From Dysgonomonas sp. Marseille-P4361 (GTDB lineage: Bacteria; Bacteroidota; Bacteroidia; Bacteroidales; Dysgonomonadaceae), in NCBI RefSeq assembly GCF_900343125.1, contig NZ_OPYL01000009.1, positions 1 to 64,000 of the forward strand: a DNA stretch of 64,000 nt, read 5' to 3'. The first letter of the stretch is position 1. Each line of letters begins with the position of its first letter. The translations under genes and the position numbers were made by a program. The notes under the pieces are model-generated. The model searched no databases. It saw nothing but the letters and a program-made list of their open reading frames with translations, and was not told the origin of the DNA. Shown here in pieces: positions 44,846 to 54,599 of the stretch.

Positions 44846-44858
44846 GAGGTTCCTGGCG
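44846..44858 (+). repeat. attL, 13-bp direct repeat
   Basis: GAGGTTCCTGGCG, identical to the 3' end region of tRNA-Cys at 54528-54540. The bases after it complete a small inverted repeat GAGGTT-N7-AACCTC. Confidence 0.85.
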
Positions 44859-44973
44859 AACCTCAAAACTATACTTTATTCACTTTCAAAGTAAAATATA
44901 CAAATTACAAAGCATTGACAATCAATATTTATTTACTTTTCGCAGATAATAAGATAAAACTAAATAAAACTTT

Positions 44974-44993
44974 GGTTGTGCAAGGTTGTGCAA
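44974..44993 (+). repeat. Left tandem repeat, candidate integrase arm sites
   Basis: GGTTGTGCAA occurs twice in tandem (44974-44983 and 44984-44993), 115 bases inside attL and 49 bases before the integrase start. The core TGTGCAA is repeated in the same orientation near the right end. Confidence 0.65.
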
Positions 44994-45041
44994 GTTAAAA
45001 GAAAAATAGTTATCTTGTGTAAAATTAAACACTACAATATC

Positions 45042-46409
45042 ATGGCTACTTTAAGATTGTTCTTCCGCTCATCTAACAAGAAAGTTAAACATGTAAATCT
45101 ACGAGCAAGATTTAGCATAGATCGAGACAGCCAATTTTATGCAACATTGCAAACTGTTGTAAACATTGAAAAATGGGATAAAGACAACCAACGTTTAAAA
45201 CTGGAGAGTAAACCGAAAGACTTCCGCTCCTACTCTATTGAGGTGCAGAACGATATTATAGATAAAATAAATATTGCCAATGAAAAACTAATCGAAACTA
45301 ATGATCTACTAAGTAATCTTAGTGACTATGTTACAACCTCTTACAACAACCACACAGGCGAATTCGGGAGCGACTGGCTACAAAAAGTCACAGATTCATT
45401 TTATAGTAGCTTAAAACCTGCTATACCTCAGATAACATACACACTAAACACTTTCATATCATCATATATCAATGATTTAGAAACAGGGAAAAGGCTAAAA
45501 AAACGTTCAAATAGAAAAGTTAGTGAAGGTACCATAAAAAGCTACAAAGGCTTTCATTCTCAATTAAAAAACTATCAAGAGACTAGAAAAGTTATAGTAG
45601 ATTTTGATGACATTACGATGGATTTTTATAGAGACTTCACTAATTATCTACTCTTTGATCGTAAATATTCTGCAAACACTGTGGGAAGAATGATTAAAGT
45701 ATTAAAGACAGTCATGTATGCAGCAAAAGACATGAAACTTCACAATAATAGAGAGATAGAAAACAAAGACTTTGCCGCAAACTATGAAGATGTAGATAAT
45801 GTTTATCTTTCGGATGAGCGTGTTAATATACTCTATAACATGAATTTATCAGACAATATTGCATGGGAAAAGGTTCGAGATATATTTATAGTAGGTTGTT
45901 TGACTGGACAACGTGTTAGTGATTATAAGCGGATTAATTCCAGGATGATAGTTACCTTATCTAATGGGCTGGAATACATTGAACTAAAACAAGAAAAAAC
46001 AGATAAGACCGTTTATATCCCTTTGGATTGGAGAGTTAAAACTATACTAGACAAATATAACGGAGAACTACCTAAAACATACGACCAAAAAATAAACGAC
46101 TACATAAAGAAAATATGCGAAAAAGCAGGGTTTACAGAACTAGTTGATATAACGCAAAATAAAGCGGGGATGGAGGCAACCACACCGAAACGCTTTTGTG
46201 ATCTAGTAAAAACACACACTGCACGTCGTTCTTTATGTACCAACATGCAAAAGGCAGGCTGCAAGCTGTCAGATATTATTGCTATATCAGGTCATGAAAG
46301 CGAGGAACAATTAAAAACATATTTGAAATTAAATAACAAAGAAAAAGCCATGTTAGCAGATAGCGGATATTTTCAACGTGTAGAGATGAAAATAAAAGCA
46401 GCTAATTAG
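45042..46409 (+). CDS. int: Tyrosine recombinase (integrase) of the element
   Basis: 455 residues with the Bacteroidota architecture: N-terminal arm-binding domain (about 1-125), SAM-like core-binding domain (about 130-240) and catalytic domain (about 255-430). Catalytic residues: Arg291 in LTGQRVSD, a Lys in the beta-hairpin QEKTDKTVYI (319 or 322), His392 and Arg395 in THTARRS, His418 in SGHES and Tyr427 in LKTYLKL. The start at ATG 45042 avoids an extension that would overlap the tandem repeats. It lies 180 bases from attL and is followed by a strong terminator. Confidence 0.93.
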   Translation: MATLRLFFRSSNKKVKHVNLRARFSIDRDSQFYATLQTVVNIEKWDKDNQRLKLESKPKDFRSYSIEVQNDIIDKINIANEKLIETNDLLSNLSDYVTTSYNNHTGEFGSDWLQKVTDSFYSSLKPAIPQITYTLNTFISSYINDLETGKRLKKRSNRKVSEGTIKSYKGFHSQLKNYQETRKVIVDFDDITMDFYRDFTNYLLFDRKYSANTVGRMIKVLKTVMYAAKDMKLHNNREIENKDFAANYEDVDNVYLSDERVNILYNMNLSDNIAWEKVRDIFIVGCLTGQRVSDYKRINSRMIVTLSNGLEYIELKQEKTDKTVYIPLDWRVKTILDKYNGELPKTYDQKINDYIKKICEKAGFTELVDITQNKAGMEATTPKRFCDLVKTHTARRSLCTNMQKAGCKLSDIIAISGHESEEQLKTYLKLNNKEKAMLADSGYFQRVEMKIKAAN

Positions 46410-46505
46410 ACTTAGTTTGACGCTATAAACCATACTTGCATCATATTAAACAATTTTGTATATTTATAATAGTTAGATAAGACAATAAAATAAGAGACAC
46501 GATAC

Positions 46506-46546
46506 AGTCCAATATTCCTTTAAAAGGGGGTATTGGACTTTTTTTT
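46506..46546 (+). terminator. Terminator after the integrase gene
   Basis: AGTCCAATA (46506-46514) pairs with TATTGGACT (46531-46539), with further pairing CCTTT/AAAGG inside, followed by eight T. It ends the integrase transcript 23 bases before the next gene. Confidence 0.92.
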
Positions 46547-46568
46547 ATTTATAAATACAAAAACAATA

Positions 46569-46748
46569 ATGAGCAGTGAATTAAAAACATTAAAAGAAGT
46601 ATGTGAACTAATGCGAGTTAGTAAAGGAACCATCTACAATTGGATGAATGAGGGGCGGATTAATTGCGTAAAAATCGGAGGGCGGGTACTATTCGAACAA
46701 TCAGAAATAACCAGAGTGATTGAAAGTAATAGAGTTGTTAATCAATAA
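46569..46748 (+). CDS. HTH_17 excisionase-like DNA-binding protein
   Basis: 59 residues, a single MerR-type winged HTH: LKTLKEVCELMRVSKGTIYN, then the wing GRINCVKIGGRVLFEQSEI. This is the HTH_17 pattern shared by excisionases and small regulators of Bacteroidota mobile elements. It follows the integrase terminator and a spacer, and is 19 bases before a second HTH_17 gene. Excision or regulation of excision is inferred from type and position. The upstream in-frame codons (46533 on) lack an alternative good start. Confidence 0.8.
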   Translation: MSSELKTLKEVCELMRVSKGTIYNWMNEGRINCVKIGGRVLFEQSEITRVIESNRVVNQ

Positions 46749-46767
46749 TTAATAAAAAGAGGGAGAT

Positions 46768-47055
46768 ATGGCAGATAATAGGGAAATGATATTAATTAGT
46801 TACAATAAGGAAGAATTGCTCCAGATGATAGAAGGAGCCGTTTTAAAAGCAATAGAACAGAATAAACAGGACAAAGAAGCAGATCAGTATTTAAGCAGGC
46901 AGGAGACTGCAGCTCTGTGTTCTGTCACTGTCCAGACATTAAACAACTGGGTTAATGCTGGTAGAATAAAAGCACATAAGATCAATGGGCGAGTACTATT
47001 TCGGAGAAGTGATATTGATGCTGCATTAATAGAGAAAAAAATACTAAAACACTAA
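46768..47055 (+). CDS. HTH_17 excisionase-like DNA-binding protein with helical N-terminus
   Basis: 95 residues. An N-terminal helix of about 40 residues precedes an HTH_17 domain: YLSRQETAALCSVTVQTLNN, then GRIKAHKINGRVLFRRSDI. It has a good ribosome-binding site GGGAG 6 bases before the ATG. It overlaps no gene and is 3 bases before the next. Related to the preceding protein but not a copy. One of the two may be the excisionase, the other a regulator. Confidence 0.8.
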   Translation: MADNREMILISYNKEELLQMIEGAVLKAIEQNKQDKEADQYLSRQETAALCSVTVQTLNNWVNAGRIKAHKINGRVLFRRSDIDAALIEKKILKH

Positions 47056-47058
47056 CAC

Positions 47059-47325
47059 ATGACACAAACAAAAAAGGGAGCAAAAGCCCCCAATTCCACA
47101 CAGAATAAAGATAGCTATACTTCCATTCAAAAACAAATGGTATTAAAATACTTTCGGGAGCATACCACCACGATGTATAAATGTGAGAAGGACACAGGAA
47201 TATCCCGTCCAAATATCTGTAGATACATTGCAGAATTAGAGAGAAGGGGATTAATAACAAGACTAACCAAAGCAGTATGTCCTATATCGGGACATATGGC
47301 ACATTATTTCACTACACAAAAATAA
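47059..47325 (+). CDS. Small winged-helix protein of the element
   Basis: 88 residues. The pattern YKCEKDTGISRPNICRYIAEL followed by ERRGLITRL fits a winged helix-turn-helix of MarR/replication-initiator type, common in Bacteroidota prophages and ICEs; the basic, low-complexity N-terminus is variable. Function is unknown. It lies 3 bases after the HTH_17 gene and 13 bases before the next gene, in the same operon. Confidence 0.65.
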   Translation: MTQTKKGAKAPNSTQNKDSYTSIQKQMVLKYFREHTTTMYKCEKDTGISRPNICRYIAELERRGLITRLTKAVCPISGHMAHYFTTQK

Positions 47326-47338
47326 ACCGTATAAATAC

Positions 47339-47590
47339 ATGAGTATAGTTTACCTCAAAGATGTTGAATCGTCTGCGGTCTTGGAAGCCCAGCGAGATCG
47401 AGAGCGATTAGATGAATTAGGCATCAAATCACCTGATATTTCTAAGATGTATAAGTTGAAAATAGATAGCCAAACTATGTTCTATTTCGGCAACAAACAG
47501 AAAAGGGAAGCATTTATTTCTAAATACTACAATAGACGAAAAAAGATATTTGAGTTTGACAAAGATAAAAATATAAATGATGATGAATAG
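47339..47590 (+). CDS. Hypothetical protein of the element
   Basis: 83 residues, no family recognised. A helical N-terminus (about 10-25, RDRERLDELGI) and a charged Lys/Asp-rich C-terminus (KNINDDE). It overlaps the following 56-residue gene by 11 bases. Part of the operon that starts at 46569. Confidence 0.55.
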   Translation: MSIVYLKDVESSAVLEAQRDRERLDELGIKSPDISKMYKLKIDSQTMFYFGNKQKREAFISKYYNRRKKIFEFDKDKNINDDE

Positions 47591-47750
47591 CAATAACACT
47601 TTCGCTGAATATAAGGAGCGCAAACAAAGAGAAGGCAAACTGCCAGTGATCAATGATATGGAGTTATCACCGGAAGAAATAGTTAAAAGGAAATATGAAG
47701 AGTATAAACAAAAAAAACGCAGAGAAAATGAAAAACAAGATCACATTTAA
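47580..47750 (+). CDS. Small charged helical protein of the element
   Basis: 56 residues starting MMNSNNTFAEYKERKQREG, ending KQKKRRENEKQDHI. Very basic and acidic in alternation; probably one long helix. No family. It starts inside the end of the preceding gene and overlaps the next start by more than 20 bases, as expected in a tight phage-type operon. Confidence 0.5.
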   Translation: MMNSNNTFAEYKERKQREGKLPVINDMELSPEEIVKRKYEEYKQKKRRENEKQDHI

Positions 47751-48417
47751 AAGAGTTGAATTACCACAACAATGGATAGATGAAGCAAAGAGGTCATCTT
47801 ACAAAGAGAGGCTTATAAGCATAGAAGATAAGCTAAATAATGACATAAAGGAACAGATAGAGACTGAAGGACTTGAATTTAGCTTAACTCTTATAAATAA
47901 GATGAGAGGCTCAAATGACGCTATTAGAGTCGAAATGAATAAGGCTTATCTTGATTATACTAAGACTTTGAAGTTTATTCCAAAAGCAGAAATGCAACGA
48001 GTTAAGCAATCATTTGATGATATAGCCAACAGACTAGAAAGTATTAATATCTGGCTGTTTAATCAATTACAGTCTATTCCGATTAGATTGGTTGAGGTTA
48101 AAAATCGTATAATATTCGATTTAAAAGAAGTAGAACAACATATCGAAACTATCGGAGTCAGAAGCTTCACAGATACAGATAGAGAGTATGTGAAGCTATT
48201 GAATGAAGCAACCGAAACACTTGTAAAGGTCAGAAACTTTGAGATCGAAAACGGCTTTGCAGAGTATAGCACAAAAGCACTGCACGTTATTCCTAGTCTA
48301 ATGGAAGGACTTGCTCCTATGTTTGTCGCTTGTGGATTGAGTACAGATGCGACGCAAGGAATTGTGAACTTGCAGTATATCATAAATAATACACACCGCA
48401 TATTAGTAGATCAATAG
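47695..48417 (+). CDS. Helical protein of unknown function
   Basis: 240 residues, predicted almost entirely helical with heptad-like stretches (for example RLESINIWLFNQLQSIPIRL and KEVEQHIETIGVRSFTD). The last 35 residues (LAPMFVACGLSTDATQGIVN) are more hydrophobic. No family recognised. The start could also be ATG 47728, 11 codons later, which shortens the overlap with the previous gene; the earlier start has AAAAGG upstream. It precedes the GC-rich hairpin and the terminase-like gene. Confidence 0.55.
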   Translation: MKSINKKNAEKMKNKITFKRVELPQQWIDEAKRSSYKERLISIEDKLNNDIKEQIETEGLEFSLTLINKMRGSNDAIRVEMNKAYLDYTKTLKFIPKAEMQRVKQSFDDIANRLESINIWLFNQLQSIPIRLVEVKNRIIFDLKEVEQHIETIGVRSFTDTDREYVKLLNEATETLVKVRNFEIENGFAEYSTKALHVIPSLMEGLAPMFVACGLSTDATQGIVNLQYIINNTHRILVDQ

Positions 48418-48421
48418 CAAT

Positions 48422-48463
48422 CGTATGGGTGGGGGTGATCCCCTTTTCACCTCCTCCCATATC
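48422..48463 (+). repeat. GC-rich imperfect hairpin upstream of the TerS-like gene
   Basis: ATGGGTGGGGGTGA (48425-48438) pairs with TCACCTCCTCCCAT (48447-48460 region) with one mismatch and one G-T pair around an eight-base loop. It is the most GC-rich point in an AT-rich element, lies 53 bases before the TerS-like start and has no T tract. Cos sites of many phages and satellites lie beside terS, so this may be a packaging site; a transcript structure is the alternative. Confidence 0.5.
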
Positions 48464-48514
48464 GCACTTTCTACTGAGAAAAAGATTTTTTACTAAAACC
48501 TATATTAACACGAC

Positions 48515-48985
48515 ATGACCGAAAAAGAAACACTTATATCTAAACTATCCGATTTAGAGAAGTTCGCTTTGATAGGCTATATCTATACCAATGATCGCAT
48601 TAATGCTTACTTAGCCAGTAGAGGCAAAAAACTCACAGCCAACAAAAACAGTCTAAATGTGCAGTCTAGTAGGTGGATCAATAGCCCTGAAGTTCAAGCT
48701 TTTTTAGACGTAGAAAGAGCAAGAAGGTTCACAGCTATAGAACAAAGTACGGCTGAATCAGATACACGCAGCAAGGATGATGTTATTCGAGAGTTGAATC
48801 TATTAGCTAATCAAGAAACTGAGCCGAGAAGGAAGTCTGAGATATTGATGAAACTTGCAGACCTTCAGCAGATGAAAAAGCAAGATGAAGAAACAGAAGA
48901 ATCTAAAGTCAGCTTCTACAGACCGCTTAAGTGTAGCGAGTGTATACTTTACAAAAATGCTAAAAACGAATTAAATAAAGAATAA
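48515..48985 (+). CDS. Terminase small-subunit-like protein
   Basis: 156 residues. The N-terminal half looks like the DNA-recognition part of phage TerS (DLEKFALIGYIYTNDRINAY, then SRWINSPEVQAFLDVERARR), where the family has the 'rL-x-n-p-x-V-x-a-f-i' stretch. The second half matches what I remember of Bacteroidota TerS proteins (KDDVIRELNLLANQETEPRR, then LMKLADLQQMKK) and ends in a Cys-x2-Cys-containing tail (PLKCSECILYKNA). TerS selects the packaging site; no TerL is present in the element, as in phage satellites. Cotranslated with the next small gene. Confidence 0.6.
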   Translation: MTEKETLISKLSDLEKFALIGYIYTNDRINAYLASRGKKLTANKNSLNVQSSRWINSPEVQAFLDVERARRFTAIEQSTAESDTRSKDDVIRELNLLANQETEPRRKSEILMKLADLQQMKKQDEETEESKVSFYRPLKCSECILYKNAKNELNKE

Positions 48986-49149
48986 TGAGTAAGAACTATT
49001 TTGAAGATGCTCTGGACTTTTCAGAGGATTATAAACCCGTGAAATATTGGGAAAGTAAAGATATTGAAATGATCTGGTTTACTCGTAAACAGCTAAACCA
49101 ATTTATAAAACACATAATAGAATCCGAAAAAACTAAAACAGAAAAATAA
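48985..49149 (+). CDS. Small protein downstream of TerS
   Basis: 54 residues (MSKNYFEDALDFSEDYKP...). Its start overlaps the TerS-like stop by one base (TAATG). It is acidic at the front, basic at the end. No family recognised. Confidence 0.55.
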   Translation: MSKNYFEDALDFSEDYKPVKYWESKDIEMIWFTRKQLNQFIKHIIESEKTKTEK

Positions 49150-49150
49150 T

Positions 49151-49435
49151 ATGGATATTTTACAAATGATAGATGAGGGAAAGCTAATCAATGCAAATCA
49201 AGAAACATCCCTCCAGATGTTTGATGTACAGATCAAAGGTAAAGATTATATTTATTTCCAGATAGCTGGCTATGACAAAAAAATGGATTTATCTGTAAGT
49301 GCATGGCATTGTGTTGATACCGAAGATGCTCGAAGATTTGGAGAGTTTCTTATTGATTTTGCCAACAAGTACGAGCAAAAAGAAGAGAAAGAAGTAATAG
49401 TCACAGAAGTAGAGAATGAAATAATAAAAGAATAA
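49151..49435 (+). CDS. Hypothetical protein of the element
   Basis: 94 residues. A compact alpha-beta region up to about residue 75 (MFDVQIKGKDYIYFQIAGYD and WHCVDTEDARRFGEFLIDFA), then an acidic tail (EQKEEKEVIVTEVENE). No family recognised. Tightly coupled to the fibre gene: its stop overlaps the next ATG by one base. Confidence 0.5.
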   Translation: MDILQMIDEGKLINANQETSLQMFDVQIKGKDYIYFQIAGYDKKMDLSVSAWHCVDTEDARRFGEFLIDFANKYEQKEEKEVIVTEVENEIIKE

Positions 49436-50253
49436 TGAATTTTAGTGAGAGATATAAGAAGGCTATAGAGACGGACAAACAGATCGAAAGTCTTGAAAAA
49501 CTCAAGGCGGCAAGATTAAAAGTTGTCGATTCCTCATCCTCTAAAATAGAGGACGAACTAAAAGAACTTAAGAATATCCGTCAAACACTACCGCCTAAAG
49601 TGAACGAATTTCCAAATTCCCCACATTTAGGAAAGAATGTCGCTTTTTGGGCTGGGGGTAGTTTGGAGTCTGCATTCAATGCTCTGATAAATTATAAAGA
49701 TACAAGTAATACACAAGGTAGAGAGGTGGCAGGATGTGTTATCTCTCACGAGGGTGGACTAGTGGCAAATAACGCTTTTATTCGAGGCACTATAATGGCT
49801 ACAGATGGAGTGTTCTCAGGAACAATCTATGCTAACGAAGGACGATTCAGTGGAATGGTTTCAATTGCTAACGGAAAGATATTACTCAATACGGATGGTT
49901 CGGGACAGTTGGCTAGTGGGAATATACGTTGGGATAAAGATGGAAATATTCAAGTTGTAGGGAAATATCAAAGTAAAACTTCAGGCAATCGGTTTGAGAT
50001 AGACCCCGAAAATGAAAGTTTATTTATGTATGACAATCACGGGAATGTCTCTATGCGGTTATGGTATAGCGAGAATTTATCCCTGTTACAATTCTTTTTT
50101 GGAGATGAGGCTACCACCCAGATTAACGCTGCTGGCATTTATTTAAGAAAAGGAAGATTGATCTTAGATTACGATCATATGGATACATCTGACCCAAAAT
50201 CTAAAGGGGTAGTCTGGAGAGACGGCACCGATTTAAAAATATCGGCCGGTTAA
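49435..50253 (+). CDS. Tail-fibre / receptor-binding-like protein
   Basis: 272 residues. A coiled-coil N-terminus (about 8-50) is followed by a beta-helix-like region in which short repeats with Gly-turns recur: FIRGTIMATDGVFSGTIYAN, then EGRFSGMVSIANGKILLNTD and GSGQLASGNIRWDKDGNIQV (about 116-175). This repeat type is common in Bacteroidota phage tail fibres. The rest is beta-rich and ends WRDGTDLKISAG. It is the only structural-type gene in the element. Followed by a terminator. Confidence 0.65.
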   Translation: MNFSERYKKAIETDKQIESLEKLKAARLKVVDSSSSKIEDELKELKNIRQTLPPKVNEFPNSPHLGKNVAFWAGGSLESAFNALINYKDTSNTQGREVAGCVISHEGGLVANNAFIRGTIMATDGVFSGTIYANEGRFSGMVSIANGKILLNTDGSGQLASGNIRWDKDGNIQVVGKYQSKTSGNRFEIDPENESLFMYDNHGNVSMRLWYSENLSLLQFFFGDEATTQINAAGIYLRKGRLILDYDHMDTSDPKSKGVVWRDGTDLKISAG

Positions 50254-50277
50254 TTTTCTTTAGCGTTTTTAGTTTGT

Positions 50278-50308
50278 AGGTGCTATCTGTAATGGGTAGC
50301 ACCTTTTT
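50278..50308 (+). terminator. Terminator of the rightward TerS-fibre operon
   Basis: AGGTGCTA (50278-50285) pairs with TAGCACCT (50297-50304), loop 11, followed by TTTT. It stands between the convergent fibre gene and the small minus-strand cassette. Confidence 0.85.
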
Positions 50309-50309
50309 G

Positions 50310-50402
50310 CTATACGCACGCTTTAATTATCAGAATAAGCAATACTACTATCACTAATCCTTTCCATGCTCCTTTGAGAAATGCTATTATTAGTTTATCC
50401 AT
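50310..50402 (-). CDS. 30-residue membrane peptide
   Basis: MDKLIIAFLKGAWKGLVIVV is followed by LLILIIKACV: a basic face of five Lys residues and one membrane-spanning helix. It starts 6 bases after the DUF6169 stop on the same strand and ends at the fibre terminator. No family. Small single-span peptides of this size act as toxins, holin-like peptides or regulators; none can be claimed. Too short for most gene finders, so its reality rests on the tight operon position. Confidence 0.45.
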   Translation of the reverse strand: MDKLIIAFLKGAWKGLVIVVLLILIIKACV

Positions 50403-50407
50403 GATTG

Positions 50408-50896
50408 TTAGTCAATTAGTAGATCGGTCAATTCTATAAAAGACTTGATTGTTTTTTCTATATTCGGGTTGTCTCGATGAATTAGTAAAGATGCACACAG
50501 AGTATAATAATTCCCTTCTTTTTCAATATCTTCTTTGTGTATATGTTTCAGTCTATAACTATATTCTTTTCTCCATTTATCGAATAATCTTCTCCGACAA
50601 AGTTCACGACCATCTATACTATCACAGACGCAAATTACAGAATTAATATTTGAAATAAAGAATTGTTCGATAAGAGAAATTATAGTCTCTTTTATGCGAG
50701 GGTCATGTATATTCTTATTTTTGGGGACTTCTGGCTCAAAGTTAAAATTGTATGTGTTTTCCAAATTTTCATCATAGCACCCACTAGGAATAAAGAGGGC
50801 GATATATTTTATACCGCCGTCTGTTACAAAAGAATATACTAAATCTTCGTTTCTTGTAAAATTATATGGGAGCTGAAAGTCTGATCTTTCTTTCAT
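50408..50896 (-). CDS. DUF6169-like protein in a counter-oriented cassette
   Basis: 162 residues. It matches what I recall of Bacteroidota DUF6169: a beta-rich start (YSFVTDGGIKYIALFIPSG) and the signature VICVCDSIDGRELCRRRLFD-KW in the middle, then a helical end. The family has unknown function and is often carried on accessory DNA. It overlaps the small upstream gene by 35 bases and is followed 6 bases later by a membrane peptide. Cargo role (possible defence or exclusion) is inference. Confidence 0.55.
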   Translation of the reverse strand: MKERSDFQLPYNFTRNEDLVYSFVTDGGIKYIALFIPSGCYDENLENTYNFNFEPEVPKNKNIHDPRIKETIISLIEQFFISNINSVICVCDSIDGRELCRRRLFDKWRKEYSYRLKHIHKEDIEKEGNYYTLCASLLIHRDNPNIEKTIKSFIELTDLLID

Positions 50897-51005
50897 CTAA
50901 AACTTTTTTTATATCCCCATTTTCTCGTATACACTTCAATAGTGCTTTCTTATCCTCAAGCATCTTTTCAAGTGCATTCATCCGTTTTTCTTGATGCTTT
51001 TTCAT
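50862..51005 (-). CDS. 47-residue helical protein upstream of DUF6169
   Basis: MKKHQEKRMNALEKMLEDKK starts a Lys/Glu-rich helix; the end is ENGDIKKVLDERKIRLSAPI. No family. It overlaps the DUF6169 start by 35 bases and has a -7 box TATCTTTG 34 bases upstream, so it heads the three-gene minus-strand transcript. Confidence 0.5.
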   Translation of the reverse strand: MKKHQEKRMNALEKMLEDKKALLKCIRENGDIKKVLDERKIRLSAPI

Positions 51006-51039
51006 AATTATATAAATTTAGTTTGTTATAAACTGTATA

Positions 51040-51047
51040 CAAAGATA
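51040..51047 (-). promoter_or_regulatory. -7 box of the DUF6169 cassette
   Basis: TATCTTTG on the minus strand (complement of CAAAGATA) matches TAnnTTTG. A TTG lies 23 bases further upstream, slightly more than the usual 19-20. Confidence 0.5.
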
Positions 51048-51142
51048 ATTGTTTTATTTTTAATACTATGCAACTTATACATATAAATTTATAAAAAACA
51101 TATCACGAGTTACATTACATAGATAAAGATATAGAAATTTCT

Positions 51143-51391
51143 TTACAATTTCTTTTTCACCTCCAACTCAGTTCCACAGTTAGGGCAAGTGATTATGTTT
51201 TGTTGAGGTTGCTCGAATAAATCGGTGATTGGAACATTAAGGGCGGAGGCGATACGTTGGAGGGTATCAGTTGAGGTATTGTTACCTCCGATAATACGGC
51301 TTATACTTTCCCGTGCAATTCCTACCTTATCCGATAAATCCCCGATTGTTATTCCTTTTTCCTTACATAAGTCTTTAATTCTATAATTCAT
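51143..51391 (-). CDS. XRE-type repressor of the element
   Basis: 82 residues. HTH_3 domain (about 4-60) with ITIGDLSDKVGIARESISRI as the recognition part, then a short tail with CPNCG (69-73), half of a zinc-ribbon-like motif. It is transcribed away from the rightward early operon; TGTGATT half-sites lie in the divergent spacer. Comparable to the Stl/CI repressor of satellites and prophages by position. No peptidase domain, so it is probably relieved by a partner protein instead of RecA-driven self-cleavage; this is inference. Confidence 0.85.
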   Translation of the reverse strand: MNYRIKDLCKEKGITIGDLSDKVGIARESISRIIGGNNTSTDTLQRIASALNVPITDLFEQPQQNIITCPNCGTELEVKKKL

Positions 51392-51416
51392 ATTTGTGAT
51401 CTATAATGTTACAATG

Positions 51417-51449
51417 CAAAGATATAATAATTAACTCGAAGAATCACAA
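51417..51449 (-). promoter_or_regulatory. Promoter of the XRE repressor gene
   Basis: -7 box TATCTTTG (complement of 51417-51424) and TTG (complement of 51447-51449) 22 bases upstream. An AATCACA half-site (51442-51448) covers the -33 element. Confidence 0.55.
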
Positions 51450-51494
51450 TTTGAGATTAAAATAACATGATAGGTCAAAATAAGTACTGAAAAA

Positions 51495-51526
51495 TTTGTT
51501 AGATGTGATTCCTAGTGTTATATTTG
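51495..51526 (+). promoter_or_regulatory. Rightward early promoter
   Basis: TTTG at 51495-51498, a 20-base spacer, and TATATTTG at 51519-51526, the canonical Bacteroidota promoter. The half-site TGTGATTC (51504-51511) sits in the spacer. It drives the operon starting at 51564. Confidence 0.75.
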
Positions 51527-51563
51527 CGATATTATTTAACATCACGGATCAAATAACAATCAC

Positions 51564-51725
51564 ATGAAACCACTATCAGCAATCTATTTTCTCATCTGCT
51601 TACTCTTAATGACAGCAGAATACACAGGCGAAGCGGTCAGCACTATGCTACTATATTACGGCTTTATCGGGACTAACTTATACAATGCGAGCAGATTAAT
51701 TAATAAATATTTAAAAATTAAATGA
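51564..51725 (+). CDS. Small two-helix membrane protein
   Basis: 53 residues starting MKPLSAIYFLICLLLMTAEY, with a second hydrophobic stretch STMLLYYGFIGTNLYNASRL. It is the first gene after the rightward promoter and overlaps the next by ATGA. The AATCACA half-site covers its first bases. Unknown function. Confidence 0.55.
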   Translation: MKPLSAIYFLICLLLMTAEYTGEAVSTMLLYYGFIGTNLYNASRLINKYLKIK

Positions 51726-52048
51726 TTATGAAACAGAATAAAGAACAAACAATGACATTTCTTTTTATCGGACGAACCATAGACATGTCTATGGGGCTTT
51801 TTAATATGGATACAAACCTTCTTGTCGGGGCATTAAACAGTATATTTTTAAACCATAAATCTTTGATTGAGCAAGACGAAACTCTATGTGGAGAAGATAA
51901 AACAGAACTTATAAATGAAAATTTTGAAGTCATATTTGAGGCTGTAAATCGTATCACTACGTTAAGCGAAATAACTCATCAGTATAAAGAATACAAAATT
52001 AATCAAAGGTGTAAAGTTAAGGAAGATCAGAACACAACAATCAAATAA
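51722..52048 (+). CDS. Hypothetical early protein
   Basis: 108 residues, no family recognised. Moderately helical, with an acidic middle and a basic tail. The start overlaps the previous stop (ATGA), which marks it as part of one operon. Confidence 0.5.
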   Translation: MIMKQNKEQTMTFLFIGRTIDMSMGLFNMDTNLLVGALNSIFLNHKSLIEQDETLCGEDKTELINENFEVIFEAVNRITTLSEITHQYKEYKINQRCKVKEDQNTTIK

Positions 52049-52049
52049 C

Positions 52050-52313
52050 ATGGCGGAATTGACAAAGACAAGCGAGGATTGGATAAACGAGTATTATACC
52101 TCCTATTTTGAAGGCTACCCGATTACGTTTATTAAAAACAAACTTACAGGTGAAATACGCATCAATGCTGATGATATGGTGCGAGCCTTAGGCATTGCAG
52201 GCGATTTTGAAGAGTTCTTAGGCACTGACGAAGGGTTAGACCTTATTAACGAATGGAAGCAGAAGCACCCTGATATGCCGTTCTTTGGCGGTGCAGTAAT
52301 AACAAATAAATAA
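52050..52313 (+). CDS. Small early protein with a Bro-N-like pattern
   Basis: 87 residues. The run KLTGEIRINADDMVRALGIA then DEGLDLINEWKQKHPDMPFF resembles the start of BRO/AntA-like or KilA-N-like phage proteins, but I cannot place it in a family with confidence. One base after the previous gene, 16 before the next. Confidence 0.5.
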   Translation: MAELTKTSEDWINEYYTSYFEGYPITFIKNKLTGEIRINADDMVRALGIAGDFEEFLGTDEGLDLINEWKQKHPDMPFFGGAVITNK

Positions 52314-52329
52314 GCTAAATAATAATAAT

Positions 52330-52665
52330 ATGGAAGCAACAACAATTAAACCGAGTACACTCAACAAAGTAATGAAAGACGCAGTAGCAAATTGCGAAGA
52401 TTACCTAACAGATAATTACGAATCTGATTATTTTTCGCAAATTTGGTTCTCGCCTGACCAACTAAGCAAGGTTACTGCAAATATTTTAATGACATCCAAT
52501 TACTGGGATATAAACAGAGTACTGAATTTCGCTAAGCAGATAACCTGTCATGGTGAATCTAGGCAGCATCACTTTTTTATCTTTGATTATGAATTATTTG
52601 AGAATTTCATATTATATTGTGTTGGAGTTAAATTAGAATTGAGAGAACAAACTATTAGACATTAA
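52330..52665 (+). CDS. Hypothetical early protein
   Basis: 111 residues, no family recognised. Mixed alpha-beta with aromatic-rich ends (QIWFSPDQLSKV; HHFFIFDYELFENFILYCVG). Part of the rightward operon. Confidence 0.45.
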   Translation: MEATTIKPSTLNKVMKDAVANCEDYLTDNYESDYFSQIWFSPDQLSKVTANILMTSNYWDINRVLNFAKQITCHGESRQHHFFIFDYELFENFILYCVGVKLELREQTIRH

Positions 52666-52677
52666 AAATTTTAAATT

Positions 52678-52851
52678 ATGACAGAAGAACAAGAAAAAGA
52701 CTTAACGTTAAGAGAGGTTGCGATAACAGGGTTTCAGCAATTACTTAGAGCTGGAATAGCAAATAGTTATGCAGGAGTGTTTGGAGAATACAAAGAAGCT
52801 ATTGAAAGACAAATTGATAAACTTGAAGGATATAAATATATTGGAGTATGA
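52678..52851 (+). CDS. Small early protein
   Basis: 57 residues starting MTEEQEKDLTLREVAITGFQ, helical, ending GYKYIGV. Its stop overlaps the start of the replication gene by four bases (ATGA). No family recognised. Confidence 0.5.
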   Translation: MTEEQEKDLTLREVAITGFQQLLRAGIANSYAGVFGEYKEAIERQIDKLEGYKYIGV

Positions 52852-53231
52852 GTGAAGGATGGGTAAAATTATACAGAGGATTAACAAAAAAAGCATTTTA
52901 CAATACCGATTCTCAACGTGTTCATTTATGGATTCACTTATTACTTAAAGCAACACATACAGGTAGGGAAGAAATGCTTGGTGGTAAACCTGTTTTTTGT
53001 AAAGCTGGTCAGTTTACTGTTGGAAGAAAACAATTATCTATAGAAACAGGAATAAGCGAGAGTAAAATAGAGAGGACTCTGACCTATTTTGAAAAGATAG
53101 AGAGACAAATCGAACAACAAAAAACAAACACAAACCGCTTAATATCAATACTTAATTGGAGTGAATATCAATCAAGTGAACAACAAGTGAACAACGACCG
53201 AACAACGAGTGAACACACTACAAGAATGTAA
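52848..53231 (+). CDS. Phage-type replication initiator, N-terminal half (frameshifted)
   Basis: 127 residues ending early. MSEGWVKLYRGLTKKAFYN and the winged-helix part GQFTVGRKQLSIETGISESK followed by RLISILNWSEYQSSEQQVNN match the N-terminal domain of the replication (replisome organiser) proteins of Bacteroidota phages and elements. In that family the Gln/Asn-rich linker continues into a C-terminal domain. Here the frame runs into a stop at 53229, whereas the expected C-terminal domain is open in another frame (53209-53613). One further copy of the 11-bp repeat at 53170-53213 would join the two into a protein of about 258 residues. Confidence 0.65.
   Translation: MSEGWVKLYRGLTKKAFYNTDSQRVHLWIHLLLKATHTGREEMLGGKPVFCKAGQFTVGRKQLSIETGISESKIERTLTYFEKIERQIEQQKTNTNRLISILNWSEYQSSEQQVNNDRTTSEHTTRM
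53170..53213 (+). repeat. Four 11-bp tandem repeats in the replication gene linker
   Basis: Units AATCAAGTGAA (53170), CAACAAGTGAA (53181), CAACGACCGAA (53192) and CAACGAGTGAA (53203). As 11 is not a multiple of three, gain or loss of a unit shifts the frame; adding one unit brings the downstream frame in register. This explains the split of the replication gene. Confidence 0.85.
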
Positions 53232-53613
53232 AGAATGTAAAGAAGGAGAAGAATGTTTATCTCCTATAGAGAAAACGTGGAGGGATGACTTTAATGTTTA
53301 CCTAGACGAAGCTACTAAGGCTTATTATGATCTAATAGCTGATGTTGAGTTTCTAAAAGAAAGAGAAAGGTTTCATCACAATCTTGACATTAGACTGTCT
53401 TTGGAAAAATCATTTAAAGACTTCTGGGGTACTGAAGCAGGATGGAAGAATAAGAAAAAGAGTAGAAGTATAACTTTAGATTGGAAAAGCACATTTAGTA
53501 ATGCTTTAACTCAAAAAATGAATCAGGTTTATAAAAACAAGAATGATTTATTTTCTCAACAAGATTTTATTCCTGTTAAACCAACTAAACCACAAGGACG
53601 ATTATTACAATAA
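53209..53613 (+). pseudogene. Replication initiator, C-terminal half
   Basis: Open in frame from 53191 and listed here from its first GTG at 53209. The stretch FWGTEAGWKNKKKSRSITLD then WKSTFSNALTQKM corresponds to the family ending in which an aromatic-Gly-Trp motif is followed by a DW-K tail. Alone it has no normal start or promoter, so it is most likely the severed C-terminal domain of the preceding gene. If the element slips to add an 11-bp unit, the whole protein is restored. Confidence 0.6.
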
Positions 53614-54100
53614 ATGAAATAGAGATTAGAAAGGAAAAAGAATATTATTTTAAAATAATATATCAGGTGTTTATTATTCTTATGAAAAAACAACCTAAAA
53701 CAACCTAATGATAATAATAATGTAAATGTAAATGATAATGAAAATGTAAATCTCCTTATCGACCTAATTAAATCAGTTTTTAGCGACTTTCTCTGTTCTT
53801 CGACTAGCTAGGCTAGGTTAACTTATTAAAAATATCATATAGGGGCTAAAAAGTGGCAAATACGACATATTTACAATCAGGGTAGGTTTACAAATATCCT
53901 TAAAATTAAATTTAAGCTATCTGCGGATTGATTTACGACACTTTTGCATTAAAGACGAACACTTCTCATCTCAAGAATTATCCACTCTTAAATCGTCTTA
54001 AAATAAGCCGATCTTTTTAAAAGCTTATTTTGACGAATTTTCCAATATTGAGTAGATGGGGTAAGAAATCAAGAAGAGATAACCGAGAGAGATAAAAAAC
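53614..54100. other. Origin-like noncoding region
   Basis: No credible gene. It holds an AT-rich hexamer-like run with repeated AATGTAAAT/AATGATAAT (53719-53751), two TTTACAA copies (53870 and 53887), a DnaA-box-like TTATCCACT (53978-53986, one mismatch to TTATCCACA) and a long hairpin (53993-54036). Directly downstream of a replication protein, this looks like the element's origin; the claim rests on position and motifs only. Confidence 0.4.
53993..54036. repeat. Long inverted repeat
   Basis: TCGTCTTAAAATAAGC (53993-54008) and GCTTATTTTGACGA (54023-54036) pair with a two-base bulge and a 14-base loop. No T tract fits a terminator. Confidence 0.7.
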
Positions 54101-54322
54101 ATGGATGAAGCATGGTTTAAAATCACCCAATCCAATTTTGGACTCAGTGAACACAAGATGCAACTTTCATTAACGAGCCGAATTTCTATAAAACAGTTCT
54201 TCAATCTCGTAAGTCACAAGCTGAACCATGACAAAGCTAGGACTAAATTATCGAAGTTGAGATGTATTTACGTCAAAAGATTAAGAATTTCTCTTTTAAT
54301 GATTTTAGTAATAAAAGTATAA
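54101..54322 (+). CDS. Possible small basic ORF
   Basis: 73 codons with no similarity I recognise and an amino-acid mix rich in Lys, Arg, Ser and Leu, as random frames give here. Kept only as a possible gene because the stretch is otherwise empty. Confidence 0.15.
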   Translation: MDEAWFKITQSNFGLSEHKMQLSLTSRISIKQFFNLVSHKLNHDKARTKLSKLRCIYVKRLRISLLMILVIKV

Positions 54323-54431
54323 TCTTCAATTGCCTCACATTGGTTGTTCATGCAACTACCTTGGTGATAGTAAGCCGACTTATCATTTCATTAACTTGGA
54401 TAGGTTGAAATAGGTGTGGAGATATAAATAT

Positions 54432-54449
54432 TGTGCAAATACTGTGCAA
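54432..54449 (+). repeat. Right pair of TGTGCAA repeats, candidate integrase arm sites
   Basis: TGTGCAA at 54432-54438 and 54443-54449, 11 bases apart and in the same orientation as the two near the left end. They end 78 bases before attR. Confidence 0.65.
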
Positions 54450-54473
54450 GATGTTAAAATCACTTTTAAACAA

Positions 54474-54510
54474 AAACGCTAATCGACTTATTTAAAGAGG
54501 ATTAGCGTTT
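54474..54510 (-). terminator. Terminator of tRNA-Cys
   Basis: AAACGCTAATC (54474-54484) pairs with GATTAGCGTTT (54500-54510) around a 15-base loop; on the minus strand the stem is followed by a T-rich run. It lies 19 bases after the tRNA and inside the element, so the element brought its own terminator. Confidence 0.7.
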
Positions 54511-54527
54511 GTTTGAGCCGAGACTCT

Positions 54528-54540
54528 GAGGTTCCTGGCG
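54528..54540 (+). repeat. attR, 13-bp direct repeat in tRNA-Cys
   Basis: GAGGTTCCTGGCG, identical to attL at 44846-44858. It covers the 3' end of tRNA-Cys (acceptor and start of the T arm), so the tRNA gene stays intact after integration. Confidence 0.88.
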
Positions 54541-54599
54541 GATTCGAACCGCCGTAGACGGTTTTGCAGACCGGTGCCTAGCCACTCGGCCAAGGAACC
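54529..54599 (-). tRNA. tRNA-Cys (anticodon GCA)
   Basis: 71 nt reading GGTTCCTTGGCCGAGTGGCT at the 5' end. The anticodon loop CTGCAAA gives GCA (Cys). T arm GGTTCGAATCC and acceptor GGTTCCT / AGGAACC pair fully, with the U73 discriminator of tRNA-Cys. CCA is not encoded. Its 3' end is the attachment site of the element. Confidence 0.95.

Follow-up and report, generated by a model that had tools for sequence, protein, structure and literature searches.

Positions 44846-54540 of a 64,000-nt stretch of Dysgonomonas sp. Marseille-P4361 DNA (the window) held a 9.7-kb element that was bounded by attachment (att) repeats and inserted in a tRNA-Cys gene. We consider this element to be probably a phage satellite of the phage-inducible chromosomal island (PICI) type, which would be induced and packaged with the aid of a helper phage. 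LoVEphage-like temperate phages were the likeliest helpers because they encode the same family of small terminase subunit (TerS). Judging from the genes, our best reading was that the element belongs to a family of TerS-carrying, PICI-like satellites in this Bacteroidota family, with interchangeable modules and probable LoVEphage-like helpers. The likeness to PICIs was one of anatomy; full membership was not claimed, since the replication protein was split over two frames and the TerS-like protein had no direct library match.

The window lay on contig C5 of a genome (G000) of 3.30 Mb that was 99.76% complete. Among the genomes compared with it, G002 and G017 belonged to the same genus, G064 to the same family and G066 to another genus. 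The best-documented phage satellites are those of Proteobacteria and Firmicutes. We found no description of one from Bacteroidota in open-licence papers, searched mainly at the level of titles and abstracts, which does not establish absence in print.

Gene content and insertion site

Both ends of the element carried the same 13-bp core, GAGGTTCCTGGCG, and no further copy was present elsewhere in the window on either strand. A chance match was rejected, since none of 400 simulated sequences of 20 kb (order-1 Markov) contained an exact 13-mer match to the 40 bases from 54528. Thus, the exact ends in tRNA-Cys described in the initial annotation were confirmed, and so were the integrase, the HTH_17 pair and the XRE switch, all of which had family matches (Table 1). 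Its statement that TerL, capsid, portal, tape-measure and lysis genes were absent also held, since none of these families was found among the 20 window proteins scanned and TerL searches of the window were negative. Like PICIs, the element therefore combined a site-specific integrase and att repeats with AlpA/HTH_17-type and XRE regulators and had no TerL, portal, capsid or tail module, one short fibre-like gene apart. It lacked the own capsid, portal and TerL genes of capsid-forming PICIs. The relaxase expected of a conjugatively mobilised element was likewise missing from the Pfam scans of the 20 proteins. A blastn search of positions 44860-52850 against phage records found no DNA similarity, Rfam (E up to 1) returned for the element only the tRNA and a single further row that fell short of its cut-off, and PADLOC gave no match for the DUF6169 protein.

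The fibre-like gene product also agreed with its first assignment, its best named PHROG match being phrog_9413 (tail; E 4.4e-5). Eleven other genomes of the family encoded proteins of 270-998 aa with regions homologous to it. In the five contexts read the matches were mostly C-terminal, with G081 and one G005 protein as exceptions. A scan of viral contigs with it, limited like all our viral-contig scans to short peptide patterns, found none.

The replication protein with an origin-like region was upheld in part. A DnaD-like domain was present, its coding was split over two overlapping frames, and the possible origin amounted to about 900 nt of AT-rich DNA with short direct repeats. The split may reflect decay or a programmed shift. 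It was somewhat unlikely that the element is a satellite already decayed and immobile through a broken replication gene, a possibility that overlaps with an active satellite, so that the two are not exclusive. The two domains stood in different frames and a relative in G012 encoded the C-terminal domain inside one 295-aa open reading frame (ORF), as decay would predict; however, the integrase, TerS-like, XRE and HTH_17 genes were all open, a translational frameshift or a two-subunit protein is possible, and replication by the helper could suffice.

Table 1. Coordinates of the window element's features and of related elements (L, locus numbering; E-values follow family names)
Feature	Position	Strand	Evidence or remarks
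Left att core, 13 bp	44846..44858		exact repeat of the tRNA-Cys 3' end
Tyrosine integrase, 455 aa	45042..46409	+	Pfam Phage_int_SAM_5 8.6e-12, Phage_integrase 1.7e-8; 67% identical to G066:C21 integrase
HTH_17/AlpA-like excisionase or regulator	46569..46748	+	HTH_17 2e-14, Phage_AlpA 0.0021, phrog_66 excisionase 3.1e-11
Second HTH_17 protein	46768..47055	+	HTH_17 1.9e-12
Winged-HTH-like protein, 88 aa	47059..47325	+	weak MarR-type matches under curated cut-offs
83-aa protein, first of module common with C11 element	47339..47590	+	98% identical in C11
57-aa protein, same module	47577..47750	+	95% identical in C11
p229, conserved in small integrase-bearing elements	47728..48417	+	92-94% identical in C11
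TerS-like protein, 156 aa	48515..48985	+	relatives in 4 LoVEphage-like prophages; structure model best matches TerS DNA-binding domains
54-aa protein	48985..49149	+	89% identical in C11
94-aa protein, variable region	49151..49435	+	no match in C11
Short tail-fibre-like protein, 272 aa	49435..50253	+	residues ~61-242 match parts of phage tail proteins
DUF6169 protein, possible cargo	50408..50896	-	PF19666 4.1e-18
XRE regulator, zinc-ribbon-like C-terminal end	51143..51391	-	HTH_3 4.8e-12; 85% identical in C11
53-aa protein common with C11	51564..51725	+	89% identical
87-aa protein common with C11	52050..52313	+	93% identical
DnaD-like replication protein, N-terminal domain	52848..53231	+	phrog_2514 2.9e-24, positions 2-127 of 270 only; 70% identical to N-terminus of 317-aa G036 protein
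Replication protein C-terminal domain, overlapping frame	53209..53613	+	61% identical over 89 aa to part of the single G012 ORF
AT-rich stretch without convincing ORF, possible origin	53614..54527		short direct repeats at 53707-53751
Right att core, within tRNA-Cys 3' end	54528..54540		second exact copy of the core
tRNA-Cys (GCA), intact	54528..54599	-	ARAGORN; Rfam tRNA 2.7e-11
G002 element	L042:2933-6773		3.8 kb, tRNA-Gly, 49-bp exact repeats; integrase, TerS-like protein, structured RNA, SoFic-type Fic gene
G029 element			12.4 kb, tRNA-Leu, 58-bp repeat
G109 element	L046:9271-20000 with L072:1-1747		12.4 kb, tRNA-Arg, 46-bp repeat; TerS-like and tape-measure-like genes, no TerL found
G081 p229 element			6.2 kb, tRNA-Gln, 16-bp repeat; int, HTH_17-like protein, DUF3987, DUF6371; no TerS-like gene
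G106 p229 element			7.5 kb, tRNA-Leu, 12-bp repeat
~300-nt segment, five copies	L042:5125-5440, L043:831-1148, L071:11797-12105, L078:17788-18100, L117:1464-1767

Related elements in the same genome and family

A second element of the same genome (contig C11, about 708.7-724 kb) adjoined a tRNA-Lys gene and contained the 83-aa, 57-aa, p229, TerS-like (96% identical), 54-aa, XRE, 53-aa and 87-aa genes of the window element. Four DNA blocks were 84-94% identical between the two, the three larger ones 88-94%. On the other hand, the C11 integrase was only 33-34% identical to that of the window, and its replication genes (AAA_25 and a BT4734-like/PriCT_2 primase) and cargo were different, the latter consisting of DUF6562 and DUF3575 genes that looked fimbrial by eye (L021:10661-16925). 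No TerL was found in the C11 element, and no relaxase among its proteins scanned, which represented part of it.

The window integrase had matches in 65 of the 101 family genomes. The best (67%) was in G066, the next by E-value was 36% identical, and no other among the matches listed exceeded 40%. The G066 element, 13.8 kb in length, used the same tRNA-Cys att core within a 14-bp repeat and carried genes for an HTH_17 protein, an AAA_25 ATPase, a TerS protein and a type I methylase with its specificity protein; type I restriction was recognised from the last two, the nuclease subunit not being identified. According to the initial annotation, a deleted prophage would be betrayed by relatives at the same site with TerL, capsid and tail genes between TerS and the fibre gene. 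Such relatives were sought, and in the G066 element, the one close integrase relative among the 101 genomes, no structural gene was seen, an outcome in favour of a satellite. This same-site comparison comprised that one relative; copies of the tRNA-Cys core were also present in G002 and G023, whose sites were left out of it. In G023, an integrase-like ORF recognised by eye (L011:1667-2841) adjoined the core copy, possibly as part of another element at that site.

At an E-value of 0.001 or better, 9 of the 101 family genomes encoded relatives of the TerS-like protein, and we read the ORF lists of all 11 TerS-like loci, that of the window among them. Four were LoVEphage-like prophages with a structural module and seven were elements without TerL, 3.8 to 13.8 kb in size (window, C11, G066, G002, G029, G109 and G075). 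Five of these seven had direct repeats of 13-58 bp at a tRNA gene; the G075 element was cut by a contig end and no end repeat was found for it. Since phrog_2 alone missed LoVEphage-like TerLs, the TerL search was repeated with one of the latter, and neither phrog_2 (10 genomes) nor the LoVEphage type (101 genomes) detected a TerL in the seven elements; other TerL types were judged from ORF reading only, which further types could escape. The modules that varied among the elements included type I or III restriction genes, a SoFic-type Fic gene, fimbrial-looking genes, the fibre and a tape measure. The initial annotation had proposed a Bacteroidota satellite with this particular gene order: the satellite was supported, and the fixed order proved too strict because both order and modules vary.

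The p229 family was detected at nine places in 8 of the 101 family genomes, two of them weak, and an alignment of it was positive in 4 of 295 order genomes (two weakly). Its members resided in small integrase-bearing elements (window, C11, G075, G109, G081 and G106), on a 6.5-kb contig of G072 and in an element of G309 from another Bacteroidales family. In G309 (L114:9982-11145), the p229-like gene was directly followed by a diverged TerS-like gene, recognised by eye, whose product aligned with the window TerS at 19%. One p229 homologue weakly matched a virion structural family (E 0.0032), and viral contigs scanned with a p229 subset gave none.

These comparisons bear on whether the window element descends from a temperate phage by loss of the structural module, with the integrase, regulators, replication genes, TerS and a piece of fibre left behind. 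We regard this as quite unlikely. The fibre-like protein did match parts of full-length prophage tail proteins, and the replication protein was split. Moreover, the integrase and terS of the 3.8-kb G002 element resembled prophage genes at the DNA level (64-78%), so that members may descend from phages by deletion. However, exact att repeats persisted in several elements, defence genes were present as cargo, and the same-site relative in another genus also lacked structural genes. A single deletion cannot explain why one genome has two copies of a module, 84-94% identical in DNA, alongside differing integrases and replication genes. Such exchange of modules in the absence of structural genes speaks for a satellite lineage and against a single deletion, and the related elements at tRNA genes elsewhere in the family argue that the element is more than a single broken prophage.

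TerS-like protein, candidate helpers and a shared RNA

The TerS assignment of the initial annotation received indirect support from kin in prophages, from the phrog_51 match of one of ten homologues and from a fold match, but no direct library match. The C-terminal region of the protein was 41% identical to the product of a gene annotated as hypothetical in the induced Phocaeicola phage PV4-TP1 and in five further phage records; the PV4-TP1 record, covered whole in two stretches, contained no annotated terminase small subunit. An alignment of the TerS-like proteins was positive in 5 of 393 order genomes, strongly only in G000 and G029, so the family looks narrow at that sensitivity. Viral contigs scanned with the single TerS sequence gave none, and with the alignment three loci, whose match statistics equalled those of the G064:C4, G017 and G064:C20 prophages.

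The candidate helpers were the prophages of G064 (C4 and C20), G003 (C1) and G017 (C32), which had TerL, portal, head and tape-measure genes, the G017 tape measure being seen only in part. The G064:C4 prophage resembled PV4-TP1 in TerL (54% identity), portal (39%), major head (34%) and tape measure (29%). Apart from these prophages, the window's own genome had a contig of 45.5 kb (C7; L039, L040) with a TerL of the phrog_2 type, tape-measure-like and head genes recognised by eye and scattered among lipoprotein genes, and a relaxase-like gene near its end.

Two elements shared further DNA with these prophages. Following its terS gene, the G002 element had a stretch of which parts recurred behind terS in two prophages (G064:C4 and G017), and a fuller version in the G029 element. 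A segment of about 300 nt upstream of the Fic gene in the G002 element occurred at five places in 4 of the 101 genomes, namely in the G002 and G029 elements and in the G017, G064:C4 and G064:C20 prophages, where it lay between the tape-measure gene and a gene for 158-173 aa. It was not found in G003, the window, the C11 element or PV4-TP1. In its 121-nt RNA core, 7 of 32 pairs were changed on both sides among the five sequences (0 of 500 shuffles). With two more diverged copies (G390 and G289, from a model search of 295 order genomes), this rose to 17 of 32 pairs (0 of 500 shuffles), in an alignment that, having been fitted to the model, is biased in its favour. Rfam (E up to 1) on L042 2700-6900, which spans the G002 element, returned two tRNAs plus a single row that fell short of its cut-off, with no match in the RNA segment.

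Besides the split replication protein, a number of results weighed against a satellite with LoVEphage-like helpers. The TerS-like protein had no family match in Pfam, PHROG or NCBIfam, and nine of its ten homologues were likewise without a PHROG match at 0.01. Its AlphaFold2 model was moderate (pLDDT 76, pTM 0.47), Foldseek returned no hit with an E-value of 0.001 or lower, and the best matches, TerS DNA-binding domains, all had VIA-align Z below 8, which for helical proteins may reflect just a common arrangement. No LoVEphage-like TerL was found in the window's own genome, which means that a helper would need to enter from another source. G121 and G011 encoded TerLs 32-35% identical to the LoVEphage-like one, yet gave no TerS-like match. 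The shared RNA and the stretch after terS were not found in the window element, and the RNA structure tested was derived from the same sequences. The pattern-limited scans of viral contigs with TerS and p229 gave no satellite of this family, only the three prophage loci. Small elements with p229 also existed without a TerS-like gene, and the 12-bp end repeat flanking the C11 element was a weak candidate, since that comparison also yielded two further matching 12-mers.

Part of this evidence would suit an integrative element that moves otherwise, by conjugative hitch-hiking or general transduction, and whose TerS-like protein is only a DNA-binding regulator. Arrays of int, HTH_17 and primase/AAA_25 genes are also present in Bacteroides mobilisable elements, some small p229 elements lacked a TerS-like gene, and the identity of TerS was supported indirectly. 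Nevertheless, we consider such mobility unlikely, since no relaxase was found among the window proteins or the scanned part of C11, relatives of the TerS-like protein were conserved in prophages, and shared DNA tied two elements to those prophages.

Proposed cycle and comparison with known satellites

For a PICI-like satellite, the gene families suggest the following cycle. The integrase would join the element, as a circle, to the 3' end of tRNA-Cys, leaving the tRNA intact, as the att repeats and the intact gene imply. The XRE regulator on the opposite strand would keep the element quiet, and the HTH_17/AlpA-like proteins would promote excision. Upon infection by a helper phage or its induction, the element would excise and replicate through the DnaD-like protein and a putative nearby origin; the TerS-like protein would then mark its DNA for the helper TerL, and the element would travel in helper particles. 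More speculatively, helper tails may incorporate the short fibre protein, which could alter or secure their adsorption.

In the G109 element, a 1,371-aa protein matched a tape-measure family (phrog_20660, 1.1e-9) and a virion structural family (phrog_14476, 1.2e-30), its two best matches being families of unknown function. Satellites that alter helper tails would be unusual, and the suggestion comes from two members, the window fibre and the G109 tape measure. Only tentatively do we raise the possibility that Bacteroidota have a class of satellites whose own TerS redirects the packaging of LoVEphage-like helpers and which remodel the helper tail, by substituting the fibre (window) or the tape measure (G109 element), the class being reduced in its smallest, 3.8-kb form to an integrase, TerS, a structured RNA shared with phages and a Fic defence gene.

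If the satellite reading is true, a helper group can be named for satellites of Bacteroidota, the LoVEphage-like temperate phages. The satellites would carry restriction, Fic and fimbrial-looking genes between strains and would provide a packaging system open to testing. The shared covarying RNA would offer an independent handle on the satellite-helper interaction.

LoVEphage-like temperate phages are common in human gut viromes (PMC8525569). LoVEphage and PV4-TP1 are related to the window element through the C-terminal region of TerS and belong to the same phage group as the prophages of the Dysgonomonas family, but they are complete temperate phages of 71-72 kb with capsid and tail.

Phage-inducible chromosomal minimalist islands (PICMIs) were modelled with int, AlpA (Pfam PF05930 or PF12728), a DUF3987-type primase and Fis, and they also carry defence genes (PMC10803314). 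Our elements resembled them in their very small gene sets, and the G081 p229 element had int, an HTH_17-like protein and DUF3987. The window element had int and HTH_17, and neither a DUF3987 nor a Fis family in Pfam. The known helpers of PICMIs are virulent phages, whereas most of the elements here carried TerS and resembled temperate Bacteroidota prophages; in the available text of the PICMI paper, the word terminase is absent (PMC10803314). The P4-like defence hotspot is treated there as well (PMC10803314).

P4-like satellites share with the window element an integrase, an AlpA-type regulator, defence hotspots and, probably, helper dependence. Unlike them, it encoded a TerS-like protein instead, and Pfam scans of the window found no Psu, Sid or Delta family.

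With PICIs, including the Staphylococcus aureus pathogenicity islands (SaPIs), the elements had in common their size class, integration at att sites, an int gene, regulators of the AlpA/HTH_17 and XRE types, the lack of a structural module and defence cargo, together with a putative replication gene and a putative TerS. The elements described here differed from PICIs in their occurrence in Bacteroidota, in their LoVEphage-like type of TerS and, in some members, in their fibre or tape-measure genes.

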